From Mycolicibacterium agri (GTDB lineage: Bacteria > Actinomycetota > Actinomycetes > Mycobacteriales > Mycobacteriaceae): DNA of 64,000 nt. The notes under the pieces were generated by a model. That model worked only from the letters and a program-made list of their open reading frames with translations, had not been told where the DNA came from and ran no database searches. Below are positions 30,800 to 48,904 of the stretch, piece by piece. Positions within the stretch are counted from its first letter, which is position 1; every line of letters begins with the position of its first letter. The stretch is taken from assembly GCF_002553505.1 (NCBI RefSeq), contig NZ_PDCP01000010.1, positions 58,520-122,519 on the forward strand, in the 5' to 3' direction. A program made the translations under genes and the position numbers.

Positions 30800-30844
30800 C
30801 GAGCTGGGATACCCAGCATTGGAGAAAAACGCGCAAAAGCTTCC

Positions 30845-30876
30845 CTATCAACCGATAGGAGCCTATCGTTTGATAG
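30845..30876. promoter_or_regulatory. 32-bp palindromic operator upstream of amino-acid ABC operon
   Basis: CTATCAACCGATAG (30845-30858), spacer GAGC, then CTATCGTTTGATAG (30863-30876). The arms are complementary at 13 of 14 positions. It lies 23 bases before the binding-protein ATG and right after the TetR gene; size and symmetry fit a TetR dimer-of-dimers site. Confidence 0.75.
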
Positions 30877-30898
30877 CCAGCTCGATCATGGAGGAACC

Positions 30899-31750: not shown

Positions 31751-31768
31751 CCGGGAGATCGGCCTGAA

Positions 31769-32554: not shown

Positions 32555-32583
32555 GGCTGCATATGAACGTAAAGGAGTCGACG

Positions 32584-33363: not shown

Positions 33364-33430
33364 CGCCCGTGCGGCGAACAGGGTCGAAATTGTCTTCGGC
33401 CGGAAGTTACAGCGAGGAGTAGCGCTCATC

Positions 33431-35023
33431 TTGTCCAATCAAGCCGTATCCACCTCCATGACCGGGGCGCTGGCAACGCCACACGCGCTGGCCTCGGAAG
33501 CCGGCATGCAGGCCTACCGCGACGGCGGTAACGCGATCGATGCGGCGATCGTTGCCGCCGCGGTCCTGACCGTTGTGTATCCACACAACGTGGCGCTGGG
33601 TGGCGATCTCATCGCGCTGGTGCGTACTCCGGACGGTGAGGTGCGATGCGTCAACGCCTCCGGATGGACCGGCGCGGCGACGGACGTCGGAAAGTTGCGC
33701 GCCGGCAACGGCAAGTGGCTGCCCATCCGTGGCGCGGAGTCGGTGACCGTTCCTGGCGGTGTCCGCGGCTGGGAGGCATTGCGCGGTTTCGGTGCTCGTC
33801 TCAGTTGGGCACGAACGCTGGCACCTGCGGAATCGGCAGCGAGCAATGGGGTCCCCGTCGCGCCCTCCCTGGCATCGCACATCACCGATCCGGAGAATGC
33901 CGACCTGTTCGGCAGCGAGGACTTCGACCGGGTGTTTGCGCCCAGCGGCAGGAGTCTCCGGGTCGGTGACCTGTTCACGCAGCCCGCTCTCGCCGACAGC
34001 TTCGCGGCGTTACGTGACGGGGGACCGGACACCTTCTATCAGGGCGGCATCGCCGAGCGCTGCATTTCGTATCTGCGTTCGCGTGGATCCTGGCTGACGG
34101 TCGAGGACTTCGCGGACTTCGAGGCTGAAGTCGTCGAACCCATCTCGACACCGTTTCGCGGCCTGACGGTACTTACCAGTCCGCCGAATACCCACGGATT
34201 GCTGTTGTTGAGGGCGCTGCGGGCCGTCGACGAACTGCCGATCACCGACCCCCTTGGCGCTGGGCTCGGAACCCTGATGCGGGTCTTTCACCGGAGCAAC
34301 GCCCTTCGTGCGTCACACGTGGGCGATCCGCGCTTCGTCGAGGTTGACGTTTCGGCTCTGATGAAGGACGGGCTGGATGTGCTGGAAGAGCTCGGCGCCG
34401 CTGCGAATGGTCCCACCGCGGTACCCCATGGCGACACTGTCGGGGTGTCCGCGGCCGACAGCGACGGCTATGTGGTGTCGCTGATCCAAAGTGTGTATCA
34501 CGCGTTCGGTTCCGGATTGATCGATCCTGAGACCGGCATTCTCTTCCACAACCGAGGAACCAGCTTCGCGCTCGACAGTGACTCACCAAATGTGATCGCG
34601 CCGCGCAAGCGGCCTCTGCACACATTGATGCCCGTAATGACGCTGGAGGAACGGGAACCGCGGCACGTGCTATCCACCATGGGTGGACAGGGTCAACCAC
34701 AGATTCTCGCGCAGATATTGCTTGGCGCCCTCGACGGCGCCGGTGCGGAGAGCGCGGTCGCCGCTCCGCGCGCGGTGGTTGGCTTGCAAACTGACGGCGC
34801 AACAGTCGATTCAGTGACGATCGAGTCGAATCTCAGCACAATGGCCAGGGATTCGATTCAGCGCAGCGGTCTCACACCGATTGACGTCGCCCCGCACACC
34901 GAAGCGCTCGGGCACGCCAACGTCATCGTCATCGACGCCGACGGGACGCTGGCGGCGGCGTCGGACCCGCGCTCGGACGGCGCGGCCGTCGTCGCGCACT
35001 ACCCACGGCGGGTCGAGCCGTAG
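33431..35023 (+). CDS. Gamma-glutamyltransferase-like Ntn hydrolase (YwrD type)
   Basis: 530-residue member of the gamma-glutamyltranspeptidase family, which self-cleaves to free a catalytic Thr. Thr336, in HGDTVGVSAAD, fits that residue and would split the protein into parts of about 335 and 195 residues. LASEAGMQAYRDGGNAIDAAIVAA and MGGQGQPQ are family signatures. In place of the PLSSM oxyanion loop of classical enzymes it has RPLHTLMP, as in YwrD-like members whose substrates are uncertain. No signal peptide is seen, so it is probably cytoplasmic. Start: TTG 33431 with AGGAG 11 bases upstream; the first ATG (33460) lacks a ribosome site. Confidence 0.87.
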   Translation: MSNQAVSTSMTGALATPHALASEAGMQAYRDGGNAIDAAIVAAAVLTVVYPHNVALGGDLIALVRTPDGEVRCVNASGWTGAATDVGKLRAGNGKWLPIRGAESVTVPGGVRGWEALRGFGARLSWARTLAPAESAASNGVPVAPSLASHITDPENADLFGSEDFDRVFAPSGRSLRVGDLFTQPALADSFAALRDGGPDTFYQGGIAERCISYLRSRGSWLTVEDFADFEAEVVEPISTPFRGLTVLTSPPNTHGLLLLRALRAVDELPITDPLGAGLGTLMRVFHRSNALRASHVGDPRFVEVDVSALMKDGLDVLEELGAAANGPTAVPHGDTVGVSAADSDGYVVSLIQSVYHAFGSGLIDPETGILFHNRGTSFALDSDSPNVIAPRKRPLHTLMPVMTLEEREPRHVLSTMGGQGQPQILAQILLGALDGAGAESAVAAPRAVVGLQTDGATVDSVTIESNLSTMARDSIQRSGLTPIDVAPHTEALGHANVIVIDADGTLAAASDPRSDGAAVVAHYPRRVEP

Positions 35024-35034
35024 GCCGGATCCTG

Positions 35035-36054
35035 TCATTCGTCGTCTTCGGCGATCCAATCGTCGAGCTTCTTCCGCAATCGCGCACCCAACGGCACCAG
35101 ACCGTGCGGCACCGCCACGATCATCACGAGAAGGACGAGCCCGAGGATGATCAGCCGGACGTCCGGCCAACTCTGTAGGCGCGCCTGCACGAAGGTCATG
35201 ATGACCGTGCCGACGATCGGGCCCATCACCGTGCCTAATCCGCCGACCACAAGCATGGTGACAAGTAACGTCATCGGCGCCAAACCCATCAGTGACGGAG
35301 AAACCACCCCGAACACAAATGCGTACAGGGCCCCTGCGACACCGGCGAAGAATCCGGACACCGCGAAAACCAGCATCTGGTAGACCCGTGGGCTGACACC
35401 CCTCGCCGCAGCCAGGGTGGGATTATCCCGCAGCGCGATGAGCCCGCTGCCCAGCGGTGAGCGCACAATGAGGAACAGCACGATGCCGGTGACGATGGCG
35501 ACGGCAATGGCGATCCAGTAGTAGACCCGGTCACGGGTCAGGCCGTCGAGCGCGCCGAGGTCGAAGCCGGGGTATTCAGACAGGCCGAATGTGCCACCGG
35601 TGAACCGTGTCTGGTCCGACACGATCAGGAGTCGCACCACCTCGCCGAAGCCGAAGGTCATCAGCGCCACGTATATTCCGCGGAGACGAAGTGCCGGCAG
35701 GGAGAGCAGCGCCGAAACAATCAGTGCCGCAACGCCACCGAGTAAAATTGCGAGCGCGGGTGGCAGAGTGCTGTGCAAGCTCAGCAGCGCGGCGACGTAG
35801 GCGCCGATCGCGTAGATGGCCAGCTGCCCGAAATGCCACACCCGCGAAAACCCGAGTACCAGGTTCCAGCTCTGGTTCAGCGTCAGCCAGATCGCGCCCA
35901 GCGTCGCCACCGCCAACCAGCTGCGGTCCGGTACCAGGAAGGGCAGTGCGACAGCGATCAGGCCGGCTGCCACAAGCGCGATCACCTGCGGCCTCGGCCA
36001 TCCCATGTCGGATGCCGACCAGGTTGGGGTCGCCGCCGTCTTGGATGTCGTCAC
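35035..36054 (-). CDS. livM: Branched-chain-type ABC transporter, permease LivM
   Basis: 339-residue permease of the LivM group with about nine to ten membrane segments. LSLPALRLRGIYVALMTFGFGEVVRL is the diagnostic stretch and GGLGTVMGPIVGTVIMTFVQ the C-terminal one. The GTG start overlaps the livH stop (GTGA). It is the last gene of the ten-gene minus-strand operon and ends 11 bases from the convergent GGT-like stop. In this family the substrate may be a branched-chain amino acid, an amide, urea or an aromatic acid. Confidence 0.92.
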   Translation of the reverse strand: MTTSKTAATPTWSASDMGWPRPQVIALVAAGLIAVALPFLVPDRSWLAVATLGAIWLTLNQSWNLVLGFSRVWHFGQLAIYAIGAYVAALLSLHSTLPPALAILLGGVAALIVSALLSLPALRLRGIYVALMTFGFGEVVRLLIVSDQTRFTGGTFGLSEYPGFDLGALDGLTRDRVYYWIAIAVAIVTGIVLFLIVRSPLGSGLIALRDNPTLAAARGVSPRVYQMLVFAVSGFFAGVAGALYAFVFGVVSPSLMGLAPMTLLVTMLVVGGLGTVMGPIVGTVIMTFVQARLQSWPDVRLIILGLVLLVMIVAVPHGLVPLGARLRKKLDDWIAEDDE

Positions 36055-36938
36055 AGCCGGGCCTCCTGCGGTTTACCGTCGATCCCCCATGGCCGGACCA
36101 GCAACACAACCAGAATCACCGCGTACAGCACCGGCAATGCGTACGTCGAACTCCAGTAAATCGACACCGCAGCCTGTACGAAACCGATGACGTAGGCGGC
36201 GATGATCGTGCCCCGCACACTGCCGAGGCCCGCGAAGATCGCAACGATCATCGCCTGCAGCAGCGGCAGGTCGCCGGCGTTGGGATACACGAAATAGATT
36301 GGCGCGAGGAGAACTCCGGCAATACCGGCCAACGCCGCCGCCAAGCCGATGGTGATTACGTAGACGCGGGTGGCGGGGATGCCAAGCAGCCTGGCCGCGT
36401 CGATATCCTGGGCGACCGCGGTGATCGCCAGCCCATAACGCGACCGCGTCAGGAACGCTCCTAACGCGAGCAACGCCACGATGGCCAACGCCGCCATCAA
36501 CAGCGAATGGTAGGTAATCGATACTCCGGACACGAGATCGACTCTGCCGGTGATTAATTCGGGAAAAGAGCGCTGCCGCGGTCCGAACCCCGCCAACACG
36601 ACGCTCTGGATGATCGTGGCGATCGCGAAGGTTGAGATGAACGCCGTCATCTCGAAGTCGACGCCCAGCCTTCCGAGAAGGGGGCGCACCGCCGTGTAGT
36701 AGGTCAGCACGCCAAGCGCGAACGCGACGGCGGCCGCAAACAACAGCGACGCCCAAACTGGAAGGCCCCATTGCGCCACGAACACCCATGCGGCCATGCC
36801 ACCCACCATCACCATGACGCCCTGGGCCATGTTGAGCACGCGCAGCGTGCCGTAGACCAGGCTCATACCGATGGTGATCAGCGCCAGGATGGAACCCTGC
36901 ACCAGGGTGCTGACCAACGTCTGCAGAACGAGAGTCAC
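36051..36938 (-). CDS. livH: Branched-chain-type ABC transporter, permease LivH
   Basis: 295-residue permease, partner of LivM, with about eight membrane segments. Family landmarks: GMSLVYGTLRVLNMAQG near the N-terminus, VAQDIDAARLLGIPATRV (coupling loop) and IFAGLGSVRGTIIAAYVIG. It starts with GTG overlapping the livF stop and ends overlapping livM, a tightly coupled arrangement. Confidence 0.93.
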   Translation of the reverse strand: MTLVLQTLVSTLVQGSILALITIGMSLVYGTLRVLNMAQGVMVMVGGMAAWVFVAQWGLPVWASLLFAAAVAFALGVLTYYTAVRPLLGRLGVDFEMTAFISTFAIATIIQSVVLAGFGPRQRSFPELITGRVDLVSGVSITYHSLLMAALAIVALLALGAFLTRSRYGLAITAVAQDIDAARLLGIPATRVYVITIGLAAALAGIAGVLLAPIYFVYPNAGDLPLLQAMIVAIFAGLGSVRGTIIAAYVIGFVQAAVSIYWSSTYALPVLYAVILVVLLVRPWGIDGKPQEARL

Positions 36939-37660
36939 GATTCGATCCCCAGATATGTAGCTGCAACGGCAGGGTCGGCCAATACCTCCTGCACCGTTCC
37001 GCTCGCCCGGACTTCACCGTTCTCAATCAGCGTCAACCGGTCGGCCAGGTCCCGCACGCGCGAGAAATTCTCCTCGACCAGAAGGATTGTCATGCCCGAT
37101 TCGGCGATCCGGGCGATTTGCCGGTACACCTCGTCGACAAGTACCGGCGCCAGACCGAGGCTCGGTTCGTCGATCATCAGCATTCTGGCGTCCGCCATCA
37201 GGCCCCGTCCCAGCGCGAGCATGCGTCGCTCGCCACCTGAGAGGGTGCGCGCCCGTTGCGATGAGCGTTCGGCCAGTCGCGGGAAGATGTCGTAAACGAC
37301 CGCCAGCTGTTGACTGCGCTCCGCGCGTCCGCCGCGGCGCAGGAACGCGCCGAGAGTGAGGTTCTCCAACACAGTCATATCGGGGAACAGTGCGTCTCCC
37401 TGTGGAATGTGGACCAGACCACGCGCGCTGATCGCCTCGGGCCGCATGCGGGTGATGTCCTGTCCTGCAAAGGTTATCCGTCCTGCGCTGGACGTGACGA
37501 GACCACTGATGGCACGCAGCAGCGTCGTCTTCCCGTGCCCGTTCGGCCCGATTACCACGGAGAGTTGGCCTTCTTCCACCCGCAGGTCGATGTCGCGCAG
37601 CACCGTGGTGGATTCGTAGCCTGCTCGCAGGCCGGCAATGTCGAGGAGTGCATCAACCAT
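36935..37660 (-). CDS. livF: Branched-chain-type ABC transporter, ATP-binding protein LivF
   Basis: 241-residue ATPase. Walker A GPNGHGKTT, signature LSGGERRMLALGRGLM and Walker B MLMIDEPSLGLAP are typical of LivF; the GHGKTT variant is frequent in the family. GLVHIPQGDALFPDMTVLENL is the Q-loop region. ATG 37660 lies inside the last codons of livG (8-base overlap). Confidence 0.94.
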   Translation of the reverse strand: MVDALLDIAGLRAGYESTTVLRDIDLRVEEGQLSVVIGPNGHGKTTLLRAISGLVTSSAGRITFAGQDITRMRPEAISARGLVHIPQGDALFPDMTVLENLTLGAFLRRGGRAERSQQLAVVYDIFPRLAERSSQRARTLSGGERRMLALGRGLMADARMLMIDEPSLGLAPVLVDEVYRQIARIAESGMTILLVEENFSRVRDLADRLTLIENGEVRASGTVQEVLADPAVAATYLGIES

Positions 37661-38441
37661 CGGTGTTCTCCGCGGTGGGGTCGGGTTCGGTAGTCGACAT
37701 CGCCTCGCCGAGATACACCCGCACGACCTCTTCGTGTGCGACGACCTCTGTGGGTGTGCCTTCGAACAGGGTCTTGCCCTGGTTCATGATCAGAACGCGG
37801 TCCGACAGCGTCATCAGTGCGCGCATCACATGCTCGATGAGCACGATCGTGATGTCTCGCTGCTTGATCTGGATGAGCAGCGCCATCAGCTCGTCGATTT
37901 CGGACAGGCTGAGGCCGCCGAAGGGCTCGTCGAGGAAAAGGATCACGGGTTGGGTCGCCAGCGCCGAGGCGATCATCAGCTTCTTCTTGTCGAACACTGG
38001 CAGCGGGCCGGCCGGCCGATCCGCCCGGCCCGCCAGCCCGACGAACTCCAGTTCGGCCACGGCGCGTTCGATCGTTTCCCGAGACTTGCGCATCGCCTTC
38101 CACCACGAGCGGCCGGCGCCGAAGTGGGCGCCGACCACCACGTTCGCCAGCACCGTCTGGCTGTCAAACACCGCCGGATGCTGAAAGGTGCGTGCAATTC
38201 CCTTGTGGCAGATGTCTGTGACGCTGGCACGCGTCACGTTCTCGCCCCGAAACCTCACCTCCCCCGATGTCGCTTTCGTCATTCCCGTCACGACGTCGAA
38301 GAACGTGGTCTTACCCGCGCCGTTCGGGCCTGCGATGCCGAAGATCTGGCCGTCCTGCACCGAGATCGAGACCTCGTTTACCGCCGTCAGGCCCCCGAAA
38401 CGCTTTGTGATCGAGATGGTTTCGAGCAGCGCGTCCGACAT
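37653..38441 (-). CDS. livG: Branched-chain-type ABC transporter, ATP-binding protein LivG
   Basis: 262-residue ATPase. Walker A GPNGAGKTT, Q-loop ARTFQHPAVFDSQTVLANV and Walker B VILFLDEPFGGLS are clear. The signature region reads GPLPVFDKKKLMIASALA: the canonical LSxG(Q/E) is changed to LPVFDKKKL, which is unusual, so ATP hydrolysis may rely mainly on the LivF half. ATG 38441 lies 4 bases after the binding-protein stop. Confidence 0.9.
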   Translation of the reverse strand: MSDALLETISITKRFGGLTAVNEVSISVQDGQIFGIAGPNGAGKTTFFDVVTGMTKATSGEVRFRGENVTRASVTDICHKGIARTFQHPAVFDSQTVLANVVVGAHFGAGRSWWKAMRKSRETIERAVAELEFVGLAGRADRPAGPLPVFDKKKLMIASALATQPVILFLDEPFGGLSLSEIDELMALLIQIKQRDITIVLIEHVMRALMTLSDRVLIMNQGKTLFEGTPTEVVAHEEVVRVYLGEAMSTTEPDPTAENTDG

Positions 38442-38445
38442 CGGA

Positions 38446-39771
38446 TCAGAGAATCCAGGGCGGCAGCGAGAACTTGCCCTTGGCGTACGGAGCCGGTGAC
38501 AGCAGCACCTGCTTGCCATCCTGGATCTGATAGGTCAGGTGCGGCATCGCCAGACTCGGGTCGTCGACCTTGTCCGGGTAGGGCACCGCCGTGAGCTCCT
38601 TTTGATCAAAGGCATACGTGCCAACGACGCCGCGGAACAGGGTTGCCTTGAGGAACTGGTTCACCTTCTCGAAGTCGTCGGCATCACCGGCCTGGGCTGC
38701 GGCGCGGGCCCAGAGCCGAACGACGTCGTACTGCGCGCCGGACTGGCTTAATCCCGCGGGCGCGTTGTACTTCTTCTGGTAGCGCTCCCGGAAGTCGGTG
38801 CCGATGGCGTCGGGCAGCGTGCCGATGGTGGTCGACCACAGCACACCGTTCGCTGCGCCCTTGGCGAGGTCGAGGTACTCAGGCACGCTCGGACCGTACT
38901 GCTGGTAGAGCAGCGACGGGGTTGGGGCGCTTGCGAATTGGGTAGCGAACCCGGCAAGGTCGCCGGCGAGGTAGTCAGTGATGAAGATCAGGCCGGGCGG
39001 ATTGGCGCGGATTCTGGCCAGCTGTGGGCCCCAGTCCGCATTCGGCGCGGTGACCTCGTCGTAGAGCACGACTTCCCAACCGAGTTTTTTGATCCCGTCC
39101 TGGAAGACGTTTGCGATCGAGATGCTGTAGGAGTCGTTGCTGGAGATGACAGCGGCGGTGTTCTTGCTCGGCGTCCACGTCTTCGACGCGATCCATTCCT
39201 GCATGAGCTGAATGAACCCGTTTGCATACCAGATTTCGGTCGGGCAGCACTGGTAGATGTTCGTGATGCCGTTGTCCACCACGAAGTTCGTGTTGTCCTG
39301 CAGTGTGTTCGTGTGCATCATCGGCACGCCCGCGTCGCCGTAGATCTTGTACTCGGCCGACGTGGTCGAGGTGTACCCGGAGAACACCGCTGAGACTTTC
39401 TCCTGCGACACCAGCCTCTGAGCGGCTTGGATGAAGTTCTCCGGCGCCTGGTCGGAGATGTCCGCGGTCACCAGTTGCACCGAGCGACCCGCCACCCCGC
39501 CCGCGCCGTTGATGTCCTCAACAGCCATCTCCGCACCGCGCACCATCTCCTGCCCGTCACCGGAATACGGTCCGGTGATCGGCGCGACGCTGCCGATTTT
39601 GATCGGTTCTCCGGATGCAGATGCGCCGGCGCCGCCCGACCTCTGCGGCTTGATCGCCCACGCCGCGCCGCCACCGACGGCCAGACCGCCGACGCCGGCG
39701 ATCGCCAGGCCGTTGACGAAGTCGCGTCTGGAGACGCCGCGGGGTCGCTCGGTGGGTGTCGTATCCGCCAT
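38446..39771 (-). CDS. Liv-type ABC transporter, Tat-exported substrate-binding protein
   Basis: 441-residue type I periplasmic-binding protein (Peripla_BP_6; urea/amide/branched-chain class). The N-terminus has a twin-arginine signal (SRRDFVNGLAIAG, then an Ala/Gly core), so it is folded, probably with ligand or cofactor, before export. Core motifs: IKIGSVAPITGPYSGDG, AVEDINGAGGVAGRSVQLV and QYGPSVPEYLDLAKGAANG. It is a clear paralogue of the C-terminal domain of the LuxR-type protein encoded upstream, matching to the last residues (TYQIQDGKQ and PPWIL against IYQIQSGAH and PSWCM). GAGGAG precedes ATG 39771. Confidence 0.93.
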   Translation of the reverse strand: MADTTPTERPRGVSRRDFVNGLAIAGVGGLAVGGGAAWAIKPQRSGGAGASASGEPIKIGSVAPITGPYSGDGQEMVRGAEMAVEDINGAGGVAGRSVQLVTADISDQAPENFIQAAQRLVSQEKVSAVFSGYTSTTSAEYKIYGDAGVPMMHTNTLQDNTNFVVDNGITNIYQCCPTEIWYANGFIQLMQEWIASKTWTPSKNTAAVISSNDSYSISIANVFQDGIKKLGWEVVLYDEVTAPNADWGPQLARIRANPPGLIFITDYLAGDLAGFATQFASAPTPSLLYQQYGPSVPEYLDLAKGAANGVLWSTTIGTLPDAIGTDFRERYQKKYNAPAGLSQSGAQYDVVRLWARAAAQAGDADDFEKVNQFLKATLFRGVVGTYAFDQKELTAVPYPDKVDDPSLAMPHLTYQIQDGKQVLLSPAPYAKGKFSLPPWIL

Positions 39772-39844
39772 GGGATTGTCTCCTCGTCACAGGCCACATG
39801 GGTTCAGGCTGTGAGCAGTACAGCCAATGGCGTTGCTGGCCGCA

Positions 39845-39860
39845 TCCGTCATCTGACGGA
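39845..39860. promoter_or_regulatory. Perfect palindrome between regulator and binding-protein genes
   Basis: TCCGTCATCTGACGGA: 7-base arms around TC. It lies 7 bases beyond the regulator stop and about 75 bases before the binding-protein start, both on the minus strand. A near copy occurs at 45140-45155 in the divergent promoter of the same operon, so an operator is more likely than a terminator; the stem is short and no T-run follows. Confidence 0.55.
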
Positions 39861-39867
39861 CTGCAGA

Positions 39868-41616
39868 CTAGGCCGACATGCACCAGGACGGTAGACGGAA
39901 GCGCGAGCACGAGCCGAACGGTTCGGGTCCGAGTGCGTGATGCGCGCCCGATTGGATCTGATAGATCATGTGCGCCTGTGCCATCGACGCATCGGGCGTG
40001 AGGTCGGGATACGACAGGGTGGAGTGGTTGGTGTCGCCGAAGTAGTACACCCCGTTGACGCCGCGATGCGGCCACCTGCGCAGGTGACGCACGACGTCGG
40101 CGGTGTTGGGAGTGGCAGTGGCTGACCACGCCGCGGCCAGCAGATTGACCTGGTCGTAGGCTGCACCCGCCTGTGACCACCCCGGTTCACGGCCGAACCG
40201 GGCGGCGTATTGGTTGCGGAACCGGCGACCCAGGACGTCGTCGTAGGTGCCGGTGGTGGTCGACCAGATGATCCCGTCGGCGGCACCGCCCACCGCATCG
40301 TGAAATCGGGGGATCGACGGCCCGTATACGCAGTAGACCAGCGAGGACAGACCCGTCGCAACGAACTCACGTTGGAACTCCGCGACCTCCTGATCGAGGA
40401 AGTGGGTGACCATGATGACCTCGGGGTCGAGCTCTGTGAGCCGCTGTGCCACCCGAGACCAGTCTGTCGTCGGCACTGGTACGCGAATCAATTCCGCGAG
40501 AGACCATTTCGCCTTTTCAGCGGTCGCGAGGAAATGTTCGTTGGTTACCCGTGTGCTCGACGTCGCGGCCTCGATGCTCACCATCCGCCTCGACCGCGGT
40601 GCCCAGATCCCGGCATGCTCCAGCTCGGTGAGAAGCCGGATCAGTCCGACGCCGTAGAACGTTTCGGAAGCACAGGTCTGAAAGATCGCACCGTAGCGGG
40701 CCGGGTCCGACTCGGTCTGGCGCACCTGTTCGGCGAATGTCGCGGTGTGCAGGAACGGCTTGCCGTAGTCGGCCACCATGTCGATTACCGAGGAGCATTC
40801 GGCGCTCGCATAACTTGTTGTGATGGCGTCGACTTCGCGGTCGAACAGCCGGGTGACACCGCGCTCGACGCTTCGAGAGTCGAAAAGGTCGATATCGGCA
40901 GTGACCAGTTCCACTCGGCGGCCCGCGATGCCGCCGGTCGCGTTGATCTCCTCGACCGCAAGCATTGCGCCGTGGTGTACCTCGATGCCATCGGCCGCCG
41001 CGGCCCCGGTGGGAACAAGTGCACCCACGGTCAACGGGCGCTTACGCGGATACGCCGGGCGCAGCGGCAGTGTCGGAGTGCGCGGTACATCGTTGACGAT
41101 GCCCTCCAGTTCCACGATGCCGATGCCCGGTGTGCCGTCAACGCCGCCAGGGATCGGTAGGCGCAGCAGCCCTGAGTCCACTGCGAGCGCGGCAAGGCCG
41201 CCGCGCGTGCGCTGGTCGAGTTTGATCAGCAGCCGCTCGATCTGGGTCGATACCGTGCGTGCGCTGGTGCCGAGTCGCTCTGCGATCCCCGCGTTCGTCA
41301 GGCCGAGTGCCAGCAGCGTCAGCACATCCACTTCGCGGACGGTGATGCCGCGCGGCATCTCGACCTCGGAGACGCGTAGCGACACGCGCTCACCAGCTGG
41401 GCGGGGATAGCCGGGAATGCAGTCGGGATCGTGTGGTTGGCGGATGAGGTGAACCGCGAGCCACTGGTCACCGCTGCGCCACAGGAACCGAAGCGAGTCT
41501 CGGGTGGTTTCGAAAAACGCCCGCGCGTAACCGACAATCTCGGGTGGAACCGCAGGGTGGCTCGCCTGGTCGCGCGCCTGCGCATCGATGATGAGCTCCG
41601 CGATGACCCTCGACAT
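39868..41616 (-). CDS. LuxR-type HTH fused to a substrate-binding-protein-like sensor domain
   Basis: 582-residue protein of unusual build. Residues 1-85 are an uncharacterised N-terminal region. Residues 91-150 form a LuxR/FixJ helix-turn-helix (ITVREVDVLTLLALGLTN, then IAERLGTSARTVSTQIERLL and KLDQRTRGGLAALA). Residues about 194-580 are a complete Peripla_BP_6 domain (VGALVPTGAAAADGIEV, VEEINATGGIAGRRVELV, VYGPSIPRFHDAVGGAADG). There is no signal peptide or membrane segment, so the binding domain should face the cytoplasm and sense an imported compound. It is paralogous to the adjacent transporter's binding protein. It sits mid-operon. AmiC of Pseudomonas, a cytoplasmic binding-protein-like amide sensor, is a loose parallel. 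Function as ligand-responsive activator is inferred. Confidence 0.88.
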   Translation of the reverse strand: MSRVIAELIIDAQARDQASHPAVPPEIVGYARAFFETTRDSLRFLWRSGDQWLAVHLIRQPHDPDCIPGYPRPAGERVSLRVSEVEMPRGITVREVDVLTLLALGLTNAGIAERLGTSARTVSTQIERLLIKLDQRTRGGLAALAVDSGLLRLPIPGGVDGTPGIGIVELEGIVNDVPRTPTLPLRPAYPRKRPLTVGALVPTGAAAADGIEVHHGAMLAVEEINATGGIAGRRVELVTADIDLFDSRSVERGVTRLFDREVDAITTSYASAECSSVIDMVADYGKPFLHTATFAEQVRQTESDPARYGAIFQTCASETFYGVGLIRLLTELEHAGIWAPRSRRMVSIEAATSSTRVTNEHFLATAEKAKWSLAELIRVPVPTTDWSRVAQRLTELDPEVIMVTHFLDQEVAEFQREFVATGLSSLVYCVYGPSIPRFHDAVGGAADGIIWSTTTGTYDDVLGRRFRNQYAARFGREPGWSQAGAAYDQVNLLAAAWSATATPNTADVVRHLRRWPHRGVNGVYYFGDTNHSTLSYPDLTPDASMAQAHMIYQIQSGAHHALGPEPFGSCSRFRLPSWCMSA

Positions 41617-41667: not shown

Positions 41668-42789
41668 TTACGCCCACACCTCGGCGTAGTCGCGGACGAT
41701 CCAGCGATCCTGGCAGGGATTGCCCACCGAGATATGTGCCCGCCGACGGACTGGTTCGAAGATCACCCCGGCGGCAGTGATCCACTGGTCGTACGGTTCT
41801 GCGGTCGGATCCGGATGACAGCAGATTCCGAAGGGATGGTCCGCGTGATCGGCCAGGATCTGCTTCCAACACCCGACGCCGCCCGCCGGTTTCTCGCGCG
41901 CCAACCGGCGCACCCGCTGCAACCGGAACAACGAGTCCGCCATCAACTTCAAGCCGAGGTCGGTGCCGCCCCGGCCGCCCGAACCACCGACCGAGAAGTG
42001 GTTGGCATGCAGCAACAAGCCGTCATCGTCGGGGACATCCCAAGCGATCGCTTCGAATCCGCCCGGTCGCGCCTCGGCGTCCACAGCGAGGCCGTCGGCA
42101 CTTGCGATTAGGTAATTCGCCGAGGACGAGCGGTGCACTGACTGCAACACCGTGGCGGCCTCGGTTGCGTTGCGGCAGTCCAGCAGTGCCCGGAGCATCA
42201 CGTGATAGGGCACGCCCGGTTCGCCGGCATCGGATGACGACACCAGCGCGTTGGTCGCTACCGTCAGCCCGCACGAGTTCATCCCGAGCTTCGCCAGAAG
42301 ACCGGCCTCGACGACTGTCATCCACGCGGGCCCGTCGTCAGGTCTCGACTCGAGCAGCACGATCGTCTCGTTGGAAAAGGTGAGCCAGTCCCAGGTCTGG
42401 CCCGACAGTTGGGCGCCGTCGCCATCGCGCGCGGCGAACGACGTGCACTCGAGGGGTGGCAGCACCGCACCGGCATTGCGGACCTTGGCGGCAAACAGGA
42501 TCTCGGTGCGCAGGTTCATCGCCAGCACGTCGATGAAGTCCAGCGCCGCGCCGTCGGCGATGCCGGTCATTTCCTCGATCGACGCCGGATGAAATGCTCG
42601 GATCGGATCGACGAAATGCTCCGCCTCCGCGCGGACCCGGTCCCAATCCCAGCCGGCGAAATGCGCGTATACGCCCGCATAGGCTTCGCGGGTGCGGTGG
42701 ACGCGGGACGCGGCCTGCGCGCCGTACTGCTCACCGCGCAGGCGGGCGTCGCCTGCGACGGTGACGATCGGCAGATCATGTTGAGTCAT
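41668..42789 (-). CDS. C45-family Ntn hydrolase (isopenicillin-N acyltransferase-like)
   Basis: 373-residue protein of the peptidase C45/acyl-CoA:6-APA acyltransferase family, whose precursor cleaves itself before a Cys that becomes the catalytic N-terminus. Cys115 in PPLECTSFAA fits; cleavage would be at Glu-Cys instead of the Gly-Cys of the fungal enzyme. GQTWDW and the LAKLGMNSCGLTVATNAL stretch are family hallmarks. Bacterial relatives hydrolyse N-acyl amino acids and small amides. ATG 42789 overlaps the preceding SDR stop (ATGA); the longer open frame has no homology. It precedes the LuxR-fusion gene by 51 bases. Confidence 0.87.
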   Translation of the reverse strand: MTQHDLPIVTVAGDARLRGEQYGAQAASRVHRTREAYAGVYAHFAGWDWDRVRAEAEHFVDPIRAFHPASIEEMTGIADGAALDFIDVLAMNLRTEILFAAKVRNAGAVLPPLECTSFAARDGDGAQLSGQTWDWLTFSNETIVLLESRPDDGPAWMTVVEAGLLAKLGMNSCGLTVATNALVSSSDAGEPGVPYHVMLRALLDCRNATEAATVLQSVHRSSSANYLIASADGLAVDAEARPGGFEAIAWDVPDDDGLLLHANHFSVGGSGGRGGTDLGLKLMADSLFRLQRVRRLAREKPAGGVGCWKQILADHADHPFGICCHPDPTAEPYDQWITAAGVIFEPVRRRAHISVGNPCQDRWIVRDYAEVWA

Positions 42790-43502
42790 GACGCGAGATA
42801 CCCTCCGTCGACGACGATTTCGGTTCCGGTGATGTAAGACGAGCGGGGGCCCGCCAGGAACATGCATGCGGCGGCCACCTCATCGGCGCGGCCGAGCCGT
42901 CGCATCGGCAGCCGCGTCAGCAGGGCCGCGGTGGCATCCGCATCCTCGACGATAGTGGTCATGGGCGTGTCGATAACGCCCGGCACCACGGCGTTGACGC
43001 GTATTCCCGCGGGGCCCCACTCCACGGCGAGCTGACGGGTGAGGGAGCCGACCGCCCCCTTGCTCGCCGCATAGGCAGCGCTGGGTTCGCCGGCGTCACC
43101 GCGCGATGACGCGACGGATCCGAGCAAGACAACGGCGCCCTCTGTGCCCGCGGCCAGCATGCCGGCGGCGACCGCGCGCGCGACGAAGAAACTGCCCCTG
43201 GCGTTGATCCCAACCACTTCATCCCATGCGGCCGTGTCCACCTCCGTCGACGCCGCTACCCGGTACACACCGGCGCAGTGCACCAGCGCATCGGGCGGCG
43301 CGCCCCACGCCGACGTGACCGCGGCAACGACCTGGCCGACCTCGCGCTGGTCGGCGACGTCGGCGGTGTATCGGCCTTCGGTCGGTGCGCTACTCGGGAA
43401 GGACCTGTCGATCTGCGCGACATCCCATCCCTCTGCCGTCGCGAGCGCGACGACCGCCGCCCCGATACCCGAGGCGGCTCCCGTGACGACGAGTCGAGCC
43501 AT
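42786..43502 (-). CDS. Short-chain dehydrogenase/reductase
   Basis: 238-residue SDR oxidoreductase. Cofactor loop TGAASGIG, the NAG-like HCAGVYR, and the catalytic YAASK (Tyr-x3-Lys) are present; GYLAS ends the protein as in many SDRs. Aspartate in DRSF after beta-2 suggests NAD preference. ATG 43502 shares a base with the stop of the other SDR gene upstream (TGATG). Substrate unknown; in this operon an alcohol or keto intermediate is likely. Confidence 0.9.
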   Translation of the reverse strand: MARLVVTGAASGIGAAVVALATAEGWDVAQIDRSFPSSAPTEGRYTADVADQREVGQVVAAVTSAWGAPPDALVHCAGVYRVAASTEVDTAAWDEVVGINARGSFFVARAVAAGMLAAGTEGAVVLLGSVASSRGDAGEPSAAYAASKGAVGSLTRQLAVEWGPAGIRVNAVVPGVIDTPMTTIVEDADATAALLTRLPMRRLGRADEVAAACMFLAGPRSSYITGTEIVVDGGYLAS

Positions 43503-44278
43503 CAGCTCACCTTGATTCCGCCGTTGACACCGATAGTCTGCCCGGTGACATAGGACGCGTCCTGCGACAGCAACCACCCGACGGCCCCGGCGACGTCCAC
43601 CCCGTTGCCGTGTCTGCCGAGCGGAACCTCGTCACGAAGCTGTTGCAGACGCAGCTGCGGGTCGATTCCCGCGGCGCGTGCCTGCAGCTCGACTTCCTCT
43701 TCGTGCATCCGCGTCAGCATGTAGCCCGGTGACACGGTGTTGACGGTGATGCCATACGGCCCGAGTTCCAATGCCAGACAGTGAGAGAGCGCACGCAGCG
43801 CCGCTTTCGACATGATGTAAGCACTGCCCCCCGTGACGGGCTGCTCGGCGTAGACGGATCCGATGTTGACAATGCGGCCGGAACGCTGGGCTTTGAGGTG
43901 CGGTGTCGCCGCGCGGCACAACCGTACGGCGCCCAGCAGATTCACATCCAGGGTGCGTACGACGTCGTCCATAGCCACCGAGTCCAAATCACCGCCGGGG
44001 CCCCCGATGCCCGCATTGTTGACGACCGCGTCGATGCGGCCGAACGACGCCAAGGCAGTGCGGACGAGTGCGTCGGCGGTTTCCGGCGCGGCGACGTCGG
44101 CGACCACCGTCCGGACCCGGCCGTCGAACATTCCCGGCTCGAAACGCGCGTCGACGTCGGCGGTGACGTCGCAGGCGATCACGCACCACCCGTCGTCGAG
44201 CAGTCGCTTCGCGATGTCGACGCCCAATCCGTCCGCCGTTCCGGTGACGATCGCACACCGCGAGGGGGTGACCGTCAT
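43502..44278 (-). CDS. Short-chain dehydrogenase/reductase
   Basis: 258-residue SDR. TGTADGLG cofactor loop, NNAGIGGPGG, NIGSVYAEQ with the catalytic Ser, and YIMSK are intact; the C-terminus INGGIKVS-like ending (GVNGGIKVS) matches classical SDRs. A CDVTADVD stretch after beta-2 suggests NAD. It overlaps both neighbours (ATGA with the deacetylase, one base with the next SDR), so the four genes are translationally coupled. Two SDRs in a row suggest two successive redox steps or two substrate stereoisomers. Confidence 0.9.
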   Translation of the reverse strand: MTVTPSRCAIVTGTADGLGVDIAKRLLDDGWCVIACDVTADVDARFEPGMFDGRVRTVVADVAAPETADALVRTALASFGRIDAVVNNAGIGGPGGDLDSVAMDDVVRTLDVNLLGAVRLCRAATPHLKAQRSGRIVNIGSVYAEQPVTGGSAYIMSKAALRALSHCLALELGPYGITVNTVSPGYMLTRMHEEEVELQARAAGIDPQLRLQQLRDEVPLGRHGNGVDVAGAVGWLLSQDASYVTGQTIGVNGGIKVS

Positions 44279-45072
44279 GGCGCAAGCCGGGCCACGTCGC
44301 GGGCCGGTGCTATCCACGCCCCCGAAGCCCTCATGTCGTCGAGCAGCCGGTCGAGAAGCTTCAGCCGCGATGGCCGCCCGATGAACTGCGGGTGCATGGT
44401 CAGCATGTAATGGGCGCCCAGTTCGGCGACGCCGTCGAGCTCGTCACGCCACAGTGTGTACACCTCATCGACGGTGCGGATGGTTTTGTCCCAGGTGTCA
44501 CCGGCAAACCAGAAGTGCGGGGCATCGTCGAGCAGCCAAGACACCGGCAACTCCGCGATGCCGCCGGGATGGCGGTAGGGGCGAATGTCGTCCATCAGGT
44601 TCGAGGAGTACTCGAAGCCGTGAGCTGCCAACAGTGTCAACGTGTTCGGGCTGAAATCCCACGACGGCGAGCGGTATCCGGCGACCTCGGCGCCCAGGCC
44701 GCGTAACGACTGCAGACCCCTGACGAGTTCAGCTTCCTCTTCTTCACGGGTCAGGTTGGTCGGGGAGCGGTGGGTATAACCGTGATGGCCGATCTCGTGA
44801 CCCGCCGCGAGGATCTCGCGGACCCGGTCGGGGTGGCGGTCGGCGTCACCGCCGCAGATGAAGAACGTCGCGGTAACGTTGTGGCGATCGAGCAGGTCGA
44901 GCAGCAGCGGAATCGCGACCTTGGGACCGTAGGTGCCCTGCGACAACACGCCTGGGCGGCCCGCGTTCGCCGGGTCTTCGCCGAGCCACACCTCCTCGGC
45001 GTCGAAATCGAAACTGATGGTTGCGCCGTAGCGTGCGCCCTCCGGCCAGTTGAAAAGCTTTCCTCCTGCCAT
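44275..45072 (-). CDS. Polysaccharide deacetylase-family (NodB/PuuE-like) hydrolase
   Basis: 265-residue NodB-fold hydrolase. ISFDFDAEEVW holds the Asp pair and HEIGHHGYTHRSP the H-x3-H metal ligands; YRSPSWDFS is the third motif. No signal peptide, so it acts in the cytoplasm and not on cell-wall sugar. Cytoplasmic relatives (PuuE allantoinase, imidases) open cyclic amides, which would suit the divergent hydantoinase genes. ATG 45072 begins directly before GGKLFNWPEGARYGATIS; the frame is open to 45201 without homology. First gene of the ten-gene operon. Confidence 0.87.
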   Translation of the reverse strand: MAGGKLFNWPEGARYGATISFDFDAEEVWLGEDPANAGRPGVLSQGTYGPKVAIPLLLDLLDRHNVTATFFICGGDADRHPDRVREILAAGHEIGHHGYTHRSPTNLTREEEEAELVRGLQSLRGLGAEVAGYRSPSWDFSPNTLTLLAAHGFEYSSNLMDDIRPYRHPGGIAELPVSWLLDDAPHFWFAGDTWDKTIRTVDEVYTLWRDELDGVAELGAHYMLTMHPQFIGRPSRLKLLDRLLDDMRASGAWIAPARDVARLAP

Positions 45073-45139
45073 TCGGCGATTGTCACCAGGCGCGCCGCAA
45101 TGCAACATCCGCAATTCGACGTAGTGGCCTCCGCACCCG

Positions 45140-45155
45140 TCCGTCGAATGACGCA
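45140..45155. promoter_or_regulatory. Second TCCGTC-N3-TGACG site, in divergent promoter
   Basis: TCCGTCGAATGACGCA agrees with the palindrome at 39845-39860 at 12 of 16 positions, with both half-sites kept. It lies midway between the deacetylase start (45072) and the hyuA start, where one factor could control both directions. The LuxR-fusion regulator is the natural candidate. Confidence 0.5.
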
Positions 45156-45221
45156 TGACGAGCGGATGCGACCACCGCTGTACTGGGCTCCTCGGTGACA
45201 CCCGTCGAGAGGTGGCAAGTG

Positions 45222-47273
45222 GTGCAACGCGGTTGGACGGTGAGCATCGACGCCGGCGGTACGTTCACTGACGCCGTAGCGAGGAGCGCCGATGGCCGCG
45301 TCCTCGTCGCCAAAGTCGCGTCCACGCCGAATGACCCTGCGAGCGCATTGTCCACCGCCGTCGCATCGCTTGTCACCCAGGGCATGCCCGTCGAGGACGT
45401 CTCGGTGGTATGCCATGGCACGACCGTTGCCACCAACGCGGTACTGACCGGCAATCTCGCATCGGTCGCGCTGCTGACCACCCGCGGGTTCCGCGACGTA
45501 ATGGGCTACCGGCAGTCGAGCAGGCCCGACGTCTACAGCCTGACCCCGCGGCGGCCGAGCGAGCTGGTCGAGCGGTTCGCACGCGTCGAGGTCGACGAAC
45601 AGATCACCAGCACCGGCGAGGTGCTCGTTGCGCTCAGTGATGCCGAGATCGAGCGGGCGGTGGCCAAGGTGTCCTCCCTGGAAGTCGACGCTATCGCGGT
45701 GTGTCTGCTTTTCAGTTACGTCGATGACAGCCATGAACGCCGGCTCGGGGAGGCTCTGCGGGCGGCGCTGCCCGACGTGCCGGTCACCCTGTCCAGCGAG
45801 GTGGCCAGGGAGTTTCGGGAGTATCCGCGCATGGCGACGACGGTGATCAACGCCGCGCTGCGACCCGTGATCGGTGGCTACATGCAACGAGCGGCCGCCG
45901 CCCTGTCGAAAGCCGGTCTGGCCGCGCCCTTTCTGGTCATGCAGTCCAACGGGGGCAGTGTGCCGGCGGCACGAGCCGACGACGGCGCGCACCGGTTGGT
46001 GTTGTCGGGCCCTGCCGGCGGCGTTGCGGGATTGGTGGCCTCGGCGGCCAGGCACGGCATCGACGATGTCATCAGCCTTGACATGGGCGGCACGTCCACC
46101 GATGTCTGCCTGGTGCGGGCACGACGGATCCCGTACGCCACCACTCAGACCGTCAACGACCACGTGCTGCTCGCCCCCGCAGTCGATATCCACACCATCG
46201 GCGCGGGCGGCGGCAGCATCGCCTGGACCGACCAAACGGGGCGGCTGCGGGTCGGCCCGCAGTCCGCGAAAGCCGATCCCGGTCCCGCGAGCTATCTCCG
46301 CGGTGGCGTCGAACCGACTATCACCGACGCCCACGTTGTTCTCGGCACGCTAGGTACCGACGGGCTCGCCGACGACCTCATGCTGGACCGAGACGCGGCG
46401 GCGGCGGCGGTCGACCGGGTGGGCGGAGTGATCGGTATGGGCACCGAGGATGCCGCCGAGGCCATCCTGGCGATCGGGCTCGCGCACATGGTGCGTGCCG
46501 TCCGCAAGGTCAGCGTCGAGAGGGGGTTGGATCCGCGCAAGTTCACCCTGGTTCCGTTCGGTGGGGCAGGACCGCTGCATGCCGGTTTGCTATTGCGGCA
46601 CATGGGGCTTCGCAGCGTTCTGGTGCCCAGTTGGCCGGGATTGTTCTCAGCCGACGGCCTGTTGGTGGCGGGTCTGCGCCTCGATGACGCGCAGACGGTG
46701 CTCACCACGTTCGACGAGGAGTCGGTGCCGCGCATTGCTCAGTGGTTCGCCGAAGCCGCGGACTCGGCCGCACGGCAACTGGTCGCCGATGGTGCGCAGG
46801 AGAGCGAGGTGACGCTGAGCGCGTCGGTGGATTGTCGCTACGTCGGCCAAGGCTATGAACTCAATGTTCCGTTATCAGGCTGGGCTGGTTGCGATCTCGC
46901 TGCGATTCCCGAACTCTTCCACGCTGCGCACGCCGAACGCTACGGCCACGCCAACCGAGACGAACCCGTCGAGGTCGTGACGTTGCGGATCATGGCGGTC
47001 GGCGCGTACGGCCGGACGGAGTTCGCTCCTCCCACCACCGCACAGCCCGGTGGTGTCGAGCGCGCAACCGTCGCACGCAGGCAGGTACGGATCCCTGGCT
47101 TCCCGGCGGTGCAGATGCCGGTCTATGAGCGATCGCTGCTGCAGCGCGGCGACCTTATCGACGGACCGGCCATCATCCGCCAAATGGACTCGACCACAGT
47201 ACTTCTCGCCGACCAGCGCGCCGCTGTTGATGCGGGCGGTGACATGCTGATCACGGATGGAGGTCAGTCATGA
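45222..47273 (+). CDS. hyuA: Hydantoinase/oxoprolinase, ATP-dependent A subunit (HyuA)
   Basis: About 683-residue ATPase subunit of the hydantoinase A family (5-oxoprolinase, N-methylhydantoinase, acetone/acetophenone carboxylase relatives). The ASKHA-like ATP site is visible: SIDAGGTFTDAV, VCHGTTVATNAVL, LDMGGTSTDVCLV, GAGGGSIAW and FGGAGPLHA. With HyuB it would use ATP to open a cyclic amide. GTG 45222 has GAGAGG 9 bases upstream and gives the usual family N-terminus; GTG 45195 is an alternative. It overlaps hyuB by 4 bases and is divergent from the deacetylase operon. Confidence 0.9.
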   Translation: MQRGWTVSIDAGGTFTDAVARSADGRVLVAKVASTPNDPASALSTAVASLVTQGMPVEDVSVVCHGTTVATNAVLTGNLASVALLTTRGFRDVMGYRQSSRPDVYSLTPRRPSELVERFARVEVDEQITSTGEVLVALSDAEIERAVAKVSSLEVDAIAVCLLFSYVDDSHERRLGEALRAALPDVPVTLSSEVAREFREYPRMATTVINAALRPVIGGYMQRAAAALSKAGLAAPFLVMQSNGGSVPAARADDGAHRLVLSGPAGGVAGLVASAARHGIDDVISLDMGGTSTDVCLVRARRIPYATTQTVNDHVLLAPAVDIHTIGAGGGSIAWTDQTGRLRVGPQSAKADPGPASYLRGGVEPTITDAHVVLGTLGTDGLADDLMLDRDAAAAAVDRVGGVIGMGTEDAAEAILAIGLAHMVRAVRKVSVERGLDPRKFTLVPFGGAGPLHAGLLLRHMGLRSVLVPSWPGLFSADGLLVAGLRLDDAQTVLTTFDEESVPRIAQWFAEAADSAARQLVADGAQESEVTLSASVDCRYVGQGYELNVPLSGWAGCDLAAIPELFHAAHAERYGHANRDEPVEVVTLRIMAVGAYGRTEFAPPTTAQPGGVERATVARRQVRIPGFPAVQMPVYERSLLQRGDLIDGPAIIRQMDSTTVLLADQRAAVDAGGDMLITDGGQS

Positions 47274-48904
47274 CGGACGTCGACACGGTCACGTTCGAGG
47301 TCGTCGCCGCGGCGCTGCAGTCGGCTGCCGAGGAGATGGGAAACGTCCTCAAGCGGTCGAGTTACAGCCCGATCATCCGCGATATGGACGACTTTTCCTG
47401 CGCGCTGTTCACCGCTGACGGTGAACTGGTGGCGCAGGCGGATTACATTCCCGCGCAGCTGGGTGCGATGTCACTCGTCGTCAAGGCCATCATCGAACGG
47501 TGGGCGAACCGGATCACTCCTGGCGATGCCTTCATTTCCAACCATCCGTTCATGGGCGCCATGCATCTGCCCGATGTCAACGTCATCTGCCCGATCTTCC
47601 TGGGCGAGAGGCTGATTGCCTGGGCAGGAACGGCGGCCCATCACATCGACGTCGGCGGCGTCAACCCCGGTAGCGAGGGCCCCGAGCTTGAGGATATCTT
47701 CGGTGAGGGTCTCGTGCTGCCGCCGGTGCGGCTGGCTGTTGCTGGTGTCGAGAACGACGACCTTATCGCGGTCGTCACGGAGAACATTCGCGATCCGCGG
47801 AGCACGGTCAGCGACCTGCGGGCTCAGCGTGCTGCCTGCGCGCTCGGGGAGGAACGGGTCGCCGAGCTCGCGTCGAGCTACGGCACGGAAGCGGTGCTCG
47901 CGGTGATGTCCGGCATGCTTGACTCGGTCGAGGACGGTGTGAAGACGGCGCTGCGGGGCCTACCGGATGCGGAAGCCGAAGCCAAAGGATTCCTCGATGA
48001 TGACGGCCGGGGTGGCCCGCCGACGCGCATTCACGTGAAGGTGACAAAGCGTGGTGATCGTTTGGCGATCGACCTGTCCGGCTGTGATCGACAGGTTTCA
48101 GGCGCGATGAACGTGCCATGGGCGAGTTCGCGGGCAGGAATCGTCTACGCGGTGCGTGCGGTGGTGGCGCCCGACCTTGGCGCTAATGACGGTTTGTTGC
48201 GGGCGGTCGACATCGAGGCGCCGCTGGGCATAGTCCTCAACCCGGAGCCGCCCGCTGCTGTGTCGGTGCGGCACAACACATGTCAACGCTTCGCCGACAC
48301 GCTGATCCGCGCCATGGGCGTGATGTGGCCGGAGAAGAGTGTCGCGAGCAGCACCGTCAGCTTCTTTTGTTTCAACGTCGGCTCGGTGAGTCCGTTGACA
48401 GGTCATCCGTCGGTGATGGCAGACGTCGTCGGCGGCGGAACCGGCGCCACGGCTTACGGTGACGGCATCGATGGTGTGGACACCTACATGTCCAATGTCG
48501 GTGTCATGCCGACCGAGGTGGTCGAGACCAACTACAGCGTGCGGGTGCTTAAGACCGAATTCATCCCGGGTTCACAGGGACGGGGAAGGTTCAACGGGGG
48601 GCTCGGTTTGCGCCGGGAGTATCAGATCATCAACACCCCGCAGCGGGTCACGTTCTATTGCGAACAAACCCATCCCGATTTCGTACCTCGAGGCGCCGAC
48701 GGCGGCGGCGACGCTCGGCCGACGACTGTGACGGTCATCGGACCCGACGGGCGCGAGATCGCCGGCCTTGCGGACAAGGCGTCGTTGACGCTGCAGCCGG
48801 GCACCATCGTGCGTGTCGAAACCGCGGGCGGCGGCGGCTACGGCGACCCCAGGGAGCGGCCGCTCGAGGCGCGCTTATTCGATGAGCGCAATGAACGGCT
48901 GTAA
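47270..48904 (+). CDS. hyuB: Hydantoinase/oxoprolinase, B subunit (HyuB)
   Basis: 544-residue partner of HyuA. Diagnostic segments: RSSYSPIIRDMDDFSCALF, HLPDVNVICPIF, GTAAHHIDVGG, GRGRFNGGLGLRREY and a Gly-rich C-terminus GGGGYGDPRERP. The HHIDVGG histidines and the aspartates of HLPDV are probable metal ligands. ATG 47270 overlaps the hyuA stop (ATGA). Together with the GGT-like enzyme downstream in the island it recalls the 5-oxoproline branch of gamma-glutamyl metabolism, but other cyclic amides or hydantoins are equally possible. Confidence 0.93.
   Translation: MTDVDTVTFEVVAAALQSAAEEMGNVLKRSSYSPIIRDMDDFSCALFTADGELVAQADYIPAQLGAMSLVVKAIIERWANRITPGDAFISNHPFMGAMHLPDVNVICPIFLGERLIAWAGTAAHHIDVGGVNPGSEGPELEDIFGEGLVLPPVRLAVAGVENDDLIAVVTENIRDPRSTVSDLRAQRAACALGEERVAELASSYGTEAVLAVMSGMLDSVEDGVKTALRGLPDAEAEAKGFLDDDGRGGPPTRIHVKVTKRGDRLAIDLSGCDRQVSGAMNVPWASSRAGIVYAVRAVVAPDLGANDGLLRAVDIEAPLGIVLNPEPPAAVSVRHNTCQRFADTLIRAMGVMWPEKSVASSTVSFFCFNVGSVSPLTGHPSVMADVVGGGTGATAYGDGIDGVDTYMSNVGVMPTEVVETNYSVRVLKTEFIPGSQGRGRFNGGLGLRREYQIINTPQRVTFYCEQTHPDFVPRGADGGGDARPTTVTVIGPDGREIAGLADKASLTLQPGTIVRVETAGGGGYGDPRERPLEARLFDERNERL

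Follow-up and report, generated by a model that had tools for sequence, protein, structure and literature searches.

The gene at 39868..41616 on the minus strand of the window, the whole 64,000-nucleotide stretch of Mycolicibacterium agri DNA that was analyzed, encodes a single chain of 582 amino acids (designated FUS) in which a LuxR/GerE-type helix-turn-helix (HTH) precedes a type I binding-protein sensor domain. The most probable interpretation of this protein, to which a probability of roughly 65% is attached, is that it is a cytoplasmic one-component activator, switched by a ligand, of a transporter and a set of breakdown genes, on which it would act through a palindrome placed near -42. 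In the mechanism proposed, the imported compound would bind the sensor domain in the cytoplasm, the closure of the two lobes on this ligand would rearrange the HTH dimer, and FUS, which is predicted to bind the conserved palindrome near -42, would from that site activate the adjacent transporter genes together with hyuA and the breakdown genes. FUS is the last gene in the run PDA-SDR2-SDR1-AAT-FUS, which starts at the predicted operators O2 and O3, so that its activity would form part of a positive loop.

The HTH-sensor fusion and its homologues

The reading frame of FUS is open on the minus strand from an ATG start at 41616 to 39868, giving the 582 residues, and the plus strand contains several stops in the same frame; the initial annotation had given the gene no strand. 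Pfam profiles place a GerE domain at residues 92-142 (37.4 bits, cut-off 23.5, E 1.9e-9) and, further along, Peripla_BP_6 at residues 195-532 (120.4 bits, cut-off 31.7, E 1.7e-34), while no LacI HTH, LysR HTH or LysR substrate domain was reported for FUS by Pfam at E 0.001. An AlphaFold2 model generated from an alignment of 120 sequences (mean pLDDT 89.7, pTM 0.84) divides the chain into a small alpha/beta module at residues 5-85 (41362..41604, minus strand), with a strand at 5-11, a helix at 25-36 and strands at 41-48, 51-60 and 77-85; the LuxR/GerE HTH at residues 92-147 (41176..41343, minus strand), in which helices 93-103, 108-115, 119-132 and 138-147 make up the four-helix HTH fold; a short helix at residues 166-174 between the HTH and the sensor; and the sensor domain at residues 193-580 (39877..41040, minus strand), of which residues 195-580 adopt a two-lobed binding-protein fold. 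The matches returned for FUS by fold search were all taken up by the sensor domain, and no Pfam family was matched by residues 1-92. Residues 46-151 resemble, at 41% identity, a portion of another LuxR-type protein that the genome encodes (L003:802-1851, 349 aa), in which the similar stretch also lies directly before the HTH and includes it, and a regulator like this one can be inferred to have given FUS its DNA-binding half.

The source names of the listed homologues of FUS are mostly of the receptor type (for example, 'ABC transporter substrate-binding protein'), as they would be if FUS were an exported transport receptor whose HTH is decorative or whose start is mis-annotated. This explanation is nevertheless extremely unlikely, because FUS has no hydrophobic leader, because many HTH residues are invariant in the alignment of 120 fusion sequences, and because the neighbouring gene encodes a receptor of its own, which begins with a twin-arginine-type leader. 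Within the first 60 residues of FUS the highest Kyte-Doolittle mean over 19 residues is 0.21, compared to 1.71 for the adjacent receptor, and FUS is predicted to be a cytoplasmic-looking protein without an obvious export signal; across the 26 fusions for which the same value was computed it ranges from 0.08 to 1.56, the most hydrophobic N-termini being those of L023 (1.56) and L026 (1.51).

A protein search with FUS returned 173 relatives, the query included, and at least 120 homologues, namely the 120 listed of these 173, carry both Pfam domains in chains of 507-625 aa, the alignment spanning both domains in 22 of the 120 listed. Proteins of Kineosporia, Actinoplanes, Peterkaempfera and Brevibacterium are among these relatives. 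GerE and Peripla_BP_6 are also above their cut-offs in all nine of the nine diverged fusions scanned. Since both domains are present in every one of the 120 listed homologues, FUS is not a frameshift artefact. The initial annotation, which had described a LuxR-type HTH continuous with a Peripla_BP_6 domain in one chain, without a signal peptide and adjoining a Liv-type transporter with a related receptor, is therefore borne out in these respects by the Pfam scores of FUS and of the cluster genes, by the modelled fold, by the open reading frame and by the hydropathy values, and the frameshift between the domains that it had raised as an objection is countered by the listed homologues. Its description of the transporter's receptor as a paralogue of FUS over the full length holds for the sensor part (residues 193-580, 34% identity to the adjacent receptor P0002).

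The gene cluster and its predicted operator

The transporter is encoded on the minus strand by genes for the exported receptor SBP (P0002; 38446..39771; Pfam Peripla_BP_6, 144.2 bits), which has a twin-arginine-type leader whose RR is invariant in 39 aligned receptors, for two ABC ATPases (ATPase 1, LivG-like, at 37653..38519 and ATPase 2 at 36935..37660) and for two BPD_transp_2 permeases (permease 1 at 36051..36938 and permease 2 at 35035..36054), the ATPases and permeases being assigned with Pfam. On the other side of FUS, also on the minus strand, are AAT (41668..42867), a C45-family autoproteolytic acyltransferase/hydrolase (NCBIfam C45_proenzyme, 245.6 bits, cut-off 85), followed by three genes assigned with Pfam: the short-chain dehydrogenases SDR1 (42786..43577) and SDR2 (43502..44317), and PDA (44275..45201), a PuuE-like enzyme of the polysaccharide-deacetylase family with relatives in the PDB that include 3rxz (192.5 bits) and the PuuE allantoinase 3cl6 (61.5 bits). 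HyuA (45195..47273) and HyuB (47270..48904), which Pfam identifies as hydantoinase/oxoprolinase A and B, are encoded on the plus strand and score 458.7 and 225.1 bits against the NCBIfam caprolactamase alpha and beta models respectively, in both cases below the cut-off of 1000. For both PDA and hyuA the longest ORF starts within the promoter region or next to it, and the true starts of the two genes are therefore probably further in.

The survey for the same fusion beside Liv-type transporters that the initial annotation had proposed finds the cluster conserved in three lineages or arrangements (Mycolicibacterium, Leucobacter and an uncultured group), and it also finds fusions that lie beside enzymes in loci without this transporter. 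FUS is the sole putative DNA-binding protein among those cluster genes that could be followed across the three lineages; for a TetR gene near the cluster in the window, only L009 and L011 have a match in a similar position. The part of the window that adjoins the cluster (30122-35023) encodes a TetR regulator, an ABC system of the polar-amino-acid type and a gamma-glutamyltranspeptidase; all three have matches close to the L009 cluster, and two of them, the TetR regulator and the ABC system, also have matches close to that of L011. In Mycolicibacterium frederiksbergense AC80 the core cluster (L013) has no hyuAB match at the usual place, and the hyuAB-like genes of the same genome instead follow another fusion, the diverged L025, which has an exact palindrome.

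When the intergenic stretches are read side by side, an 18-bp dyad, ATSCGTCA-WW-TGACGSAT, is seen in 16 of 17 loci, L042 being the one without it; the pattern used to search for the dyad was RTNCGTCANNYGACGNAY. All 17 of the 17 core loci counted for the receptor gene have an exact match to RTNCGTCANNYGACGNAY ahead of it, and all 16 of the 16 counted for hyuA have a site with 0-2 mismatches ahead of that gene, in each case across the three lineages, although related loci are not independent observations. Each genome enters these counts a single time (L041, L048 and L049 being repeats of L019, L012 and L009), and the loci excluded from one or other of the two counts are L014, which has an exact site just after FUS and no receptor match in its stretch, L013, which has no hyuA match, and L010, whose stretch stops short of hyuA. 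Neither L010 nor L073 was used in drafting the pattern, and L073, which was added after the pattern had been fixed, has palindromes at both the receptor gene and hyuA and repeats the same -10 spacing.

In the window the pattern is matched exactly by the predicted operators O1, between FUS and the receptor gene (39844..39861), and O2, between hyuA and PDA (45139..45156), which are the only two places in the 6.99-Mb genome with an exact palindrome. A weaker second site, O3, faces PDA (45107..45124, minus strand; CTACGTCGAATTGCGGAT) and has more than 2 mismatches to the pattern, whereas the homologous place departs from the pattern by a single mismatch in L012 and L013. When the core loci were randomized to first order, 957,771 bases yielded 0 exact, 2 one-mismatch and 59 two-mismatch matches. 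Imperfect copies of the palindrome are not above chance either in the window, where there are 4 with 1-2 mismatches against a mean of 5.36, or in the genome, where there are 10 strand hits with 1 mismatch against 8 for the reversed pattern; the case for a putative operator is accordingly one of exactness, place and conservation. The sensing role put forward in the initial annotation gains support from the palindrome, which is common to the transporter and hydantoinase promoters.

The spacing between the palindrome and the putative -10 element bears on the direction of regulation. Predicted -10 hexamers TGTACT, read from their position, are found 21 bp after O1 in the transporter promoter (39817..39822, minus strand) and 22 bp after O2 in the hyuA promoter (45179..45184, plus strand), and if the hexamer is the -10 element, then the centre of the dyad lies at about -42.5 or -43.5. 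The operators of LuxR-type class II activators are centred near -42.5, and regulators that bind at about -42 are typically activators. The pattern T[AG]NNNT starts 21 or 22 bp past the dyad in 25 of 41 oriented sites, compared to 5 for the next best offset. By lineage, this spacing is present in 12 of 12 Mycolicibacterium sites, 6 of 20 in Leucobacter and 7 of 9 in the uncultured group; by promoter, it is present at the receptor gene in 16 of 16, at PDA of the uncultured group in 3 of 3, at hyuA in 6 of 15 and at SDR2 in 0 of 7. T[AG]NNNT is found at 21-22 bp in 0 of the 14 Leucobacter hyuA and SDR2 promoters, and it is missing at that distance from 2 of the 3 hyuA promoters of the uncultured group. 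A looser -10 pattern, which was written after the data had been seen and is not relied on, is matched in 31 of 41. The 41 oriented sites omit the weak PDA-side sites of Mycolicibacterium, the L014 site after FUS, L073, the FUS-facing side in L019, L022 and L023, the hyuA side of L010, and the sites of L025, L043, L044 and L050.

The same geometry could be read as that of a repressor which covers the -35 region from this operator and is released on ligand binding, given that the predicted site, just upstream of the -10 element, would extend into the -35 region, from which repression, too, could be exerted. It is rather improbable that FUS works in this way, because an activator has to stand at a set distance to contact RNA polymerase, as it would with the fixed spacing of 21-22 bp seen in 16 of 16 receptor promoters, and because of the typically activating behaviour of LuxR-type regulators at that position.

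The way in which the palindrome and FUS are distributed together bears on the assignment of the one to the other. Among 25 other genomes, an exact site is present at the cluster in 5 of the 5 with core fusions and in 0 of the 4 with diverged fusions only; stray exact sites occur in 2 of the 16 without a fusion match, and the reversed pattern gives 4 strand hits across the 25. In the core fusions the recognition helix reads S[TS]Q[IL]ERLL or VERLL. L025, a diverged fusion that both of the trees described below group with the core type, has the helix STQLERLL and an exact site before a permease-hyuA-hyuB run, while L042, L024, L026, L046, L043, L045 and L051 have other residues in the recognition helix and no exact site. 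The exact palindrome occurs in 1 of the 9 second-type loci (L024, L026, L042, L043, L045, L046, L050, L051 and L074, with L044 a near-copy of L043), namely in L050, despite a recognition helix that differs from that of the core; L043 has a 2-mismatch relative of the palindrome before PDA, and the other seven have no palindrome at a plausible place. This correspondence between helix and site links the protein to the palindrome, which FUS is predicted to bind.

The exact site of L050 with its different helix, the lack of a site in most second-type loci and the stray exact sites in genomes without a fusion match are points in favour of a palindrome that belongs to some other regulator encoded elsewhere, with FUS acting at other sites. 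Such an arrangement is quite unlikely in view of the exact cluster sites in all 5 of the core-fusion genomes tested, and no second regulator was found to accompany the cluster throughout the three lineages.

Two further exact sites were observed away from these promoters. The first (L078:4011-4028, in G466) is located between divergent genes, before a sodium:solute symporter gene and a gene of the M20-peptidase family; it has no -10 element at the usual spacing and is possibly a further target. The second (L079, in G422) falls inside an ORF.

Origin, distribution and ligand of the sensor domain

In a tree of 95 domains, 45 fusion sensor domains are located on one side of a branch and 50 receptors on the other (100/94). 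The rows of this tree were chosen, 86 of the 95 are different, domains of fewer than 300 residues were dropped, and loci L010, L014, L016, L041, L048 and L049 are omitted. In a second tree of 35 rows, with an outgroup of nine further Peripla_BP_6 proteins from the same genome, the 15 fusions form one clade (99/97) whose sister is L054/L056, two receptors from Ensifer and Agrobacterium plasmids (97/97); the next branches are other alphaproteobacterial receptors (92/89) and then the cluster's own receptor. Forcing the fusions and the cluster receptors into one clade changes the likelihood by -19.8 log units (AU p 0.043), so that a joint clade appears to be only narrowly rejected, with long branches in play. 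A local duplication of the adjacent receptor, which the initial annotation had taken to be the source of the sensor before its fusion to an HTH, finds no support in either tree, the sister of the fusions in the second being a pair of proteobacterial receptors, and its rejection by the AU test is narrow. A single old fusion that was later paired with this transporter looks like the better fit.

A receptor gene related to these is found in a different setting on plasmid p1 of Aminobacter niigataensis (L053:412-4209), where it comes after genes for a response regulator and an ATP-binding protein, possibly a histidine kinase; no transporter gene is annotated in that stretch, and the receptor perhaps feeds a two-component system.

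The fusion is present in 10 of 396 genomes of the genus, the source genome included (E<=1e-75); eight of these are of the core type and two (G443 and G675) have diverged copies only, and G430 and G649 have a diverged copy alongside the core one. Of 394 genomes drawn from the class, 5 have it, again with the source genome included, and a related query finds it in 3 of the 166 genomes of the order of G304, G304 included. Second-type fusions are carried by a Paenarthrobacter plasmid and by an Agrobacterium tumefaciens plasmid, on each of which the fusion is located beside a deacetylase-family enzyme and a nitrilase-like hydrolase, with hydantoinase A/B a few genes further on in the Agrobacterium case. 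The patchy distribution and the plasmid copies suggest horizontal spread. In some second-type loci (L043:6053-6928, L050:6446-7318 and L051:4372-5253) a carbon-nitrogen hydrolase adjoins the deacetylase-family enzyme by the fusion, a pairing that suggests ring opening followed by amide cleavage.

These observations can be combined into a wider account, which is given slightly better than even standing, in which a single ancient fusion turned a Liv-type receptor into an HTH-first switch that spread as a regulator of cyclic-amide clusters across actinobacteria and to an Agrobacterium plasmid. The core branch would drive its own importer and its ring-opening enzymes from one palindrome, and the cell would thereby read inside what the exported receptor reads outside.

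The nature of the ligand can be approached through the neighbouring enzymes and through the pocket. HyuAB, the PuuE-like enzyme and the C45 hydrolase point to a cyclic amide, or a product of one, as the likely ligand of FUS. When 120 fusions are compared with 121 receptors, 53 columns are conserved (at least 90%) and identical, 10 are conserved in both and different, 39 are conserved in the fusions only and 101 in the receptors only; the pocket residues, the loss of which the initial annotation had named as a point against a sensor, are thus not lost. Judged from these columns, the sensor pocket is maintained and is related to that of the receptor without being the same, and the sensor and the receptor may not bind the same compound. 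A raised identity in the cleft loops, which were assigned from the strand ends in the AlphaFold2 model, was considered for the sensor and receptor of the window and was not significant (42.5% of 80 columns compared to 34.1% overall, p 0.11).

If the two proteins do differ in specificity, then FUS could still be an activator while responding to an internal intermediate or end product in place of the transported compound. The 10 columns that are conserved yet different, several of them in cleft loops, would accord with this, as would the fusions found beside enzymes without this transporter, but the 53 identical conserved columns, many of which are also in cleft loops, and the inclusion of the transporter in the predicted regulon argue for the transported compound, and an internal ligand is regarded as a doubtful, though serious, alternative. 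An activator that measures the imported compound is the preferred reading.

Relation to known systems

One-chain regulators in which an HTH is combined with a periplasmic-binding-protein-like sensor include LacI/GalR, AraR-type GntR, XylR and LysR, which differ from FUS in that they belong to other HTH families and use other sensor families; at E 0.001 Pfam reports none of the domains of these regulators for FUS. AmiR is an ANTAR antiterminator, and NasS has a receptor-like fold.

In the AmiC-AmiR system of Pseudomonas aeruginosa (PDB 1pea, 1qnl and 1qo0), AmiC is a separate protein that is complexed with AmiR, as the title of 1qo0 states, so that sensor and output are on two proteins, whereas FUS joins its sensor to a GerE HTH in one chain. 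NasS-NasT, in which, according to the abstract of PMC3795266, the cytoplasmic sensor frees the output protein on ligand binding, is like FUS in having a receptor-like cytoplasmic sensor and unlike it in consisting of two proteins with an RNA-binding output. The Silicibacter pomeroyi receptor 3h5l matches only the sensor part of FUS and is closer to the cluster transporter's own receptor (267.8 bits). The caprolactamase CapAB of Pseudomonas jessenii and the HyuAB of the cluster are members of the same ATP-dependent lactam-opening superfamily, and the regulators named for the CapAB cluster in the portion of PMC6061476 consulted are CsiR and an IclR-type protein, not a fusion. In the literature searched there was no account of a LuxR HTH-Peripla_BP_6 fusion, of the HTH-first order of such a protein or of its regulon; subscription journals are thinly covered there, which makes this weak evidence of absence.

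With the role proposed here, a family whose members are mostly named as transport receptors acquires a testable function as a transcription switch, with a named operator and a predicted regulon. The cluster encodes both an exported receptor and a predicted intracellular sensor from the same fold family, a natural pair for studying how such a domain is rewired to drive an HTH, and cyclic-amide biosensors might be developed from FUS. The principle of fusing an HTH to a binding-protein fold is already known; what is new in this analysis is the 18-bp palindrome at the transporter and hyuA promoters.
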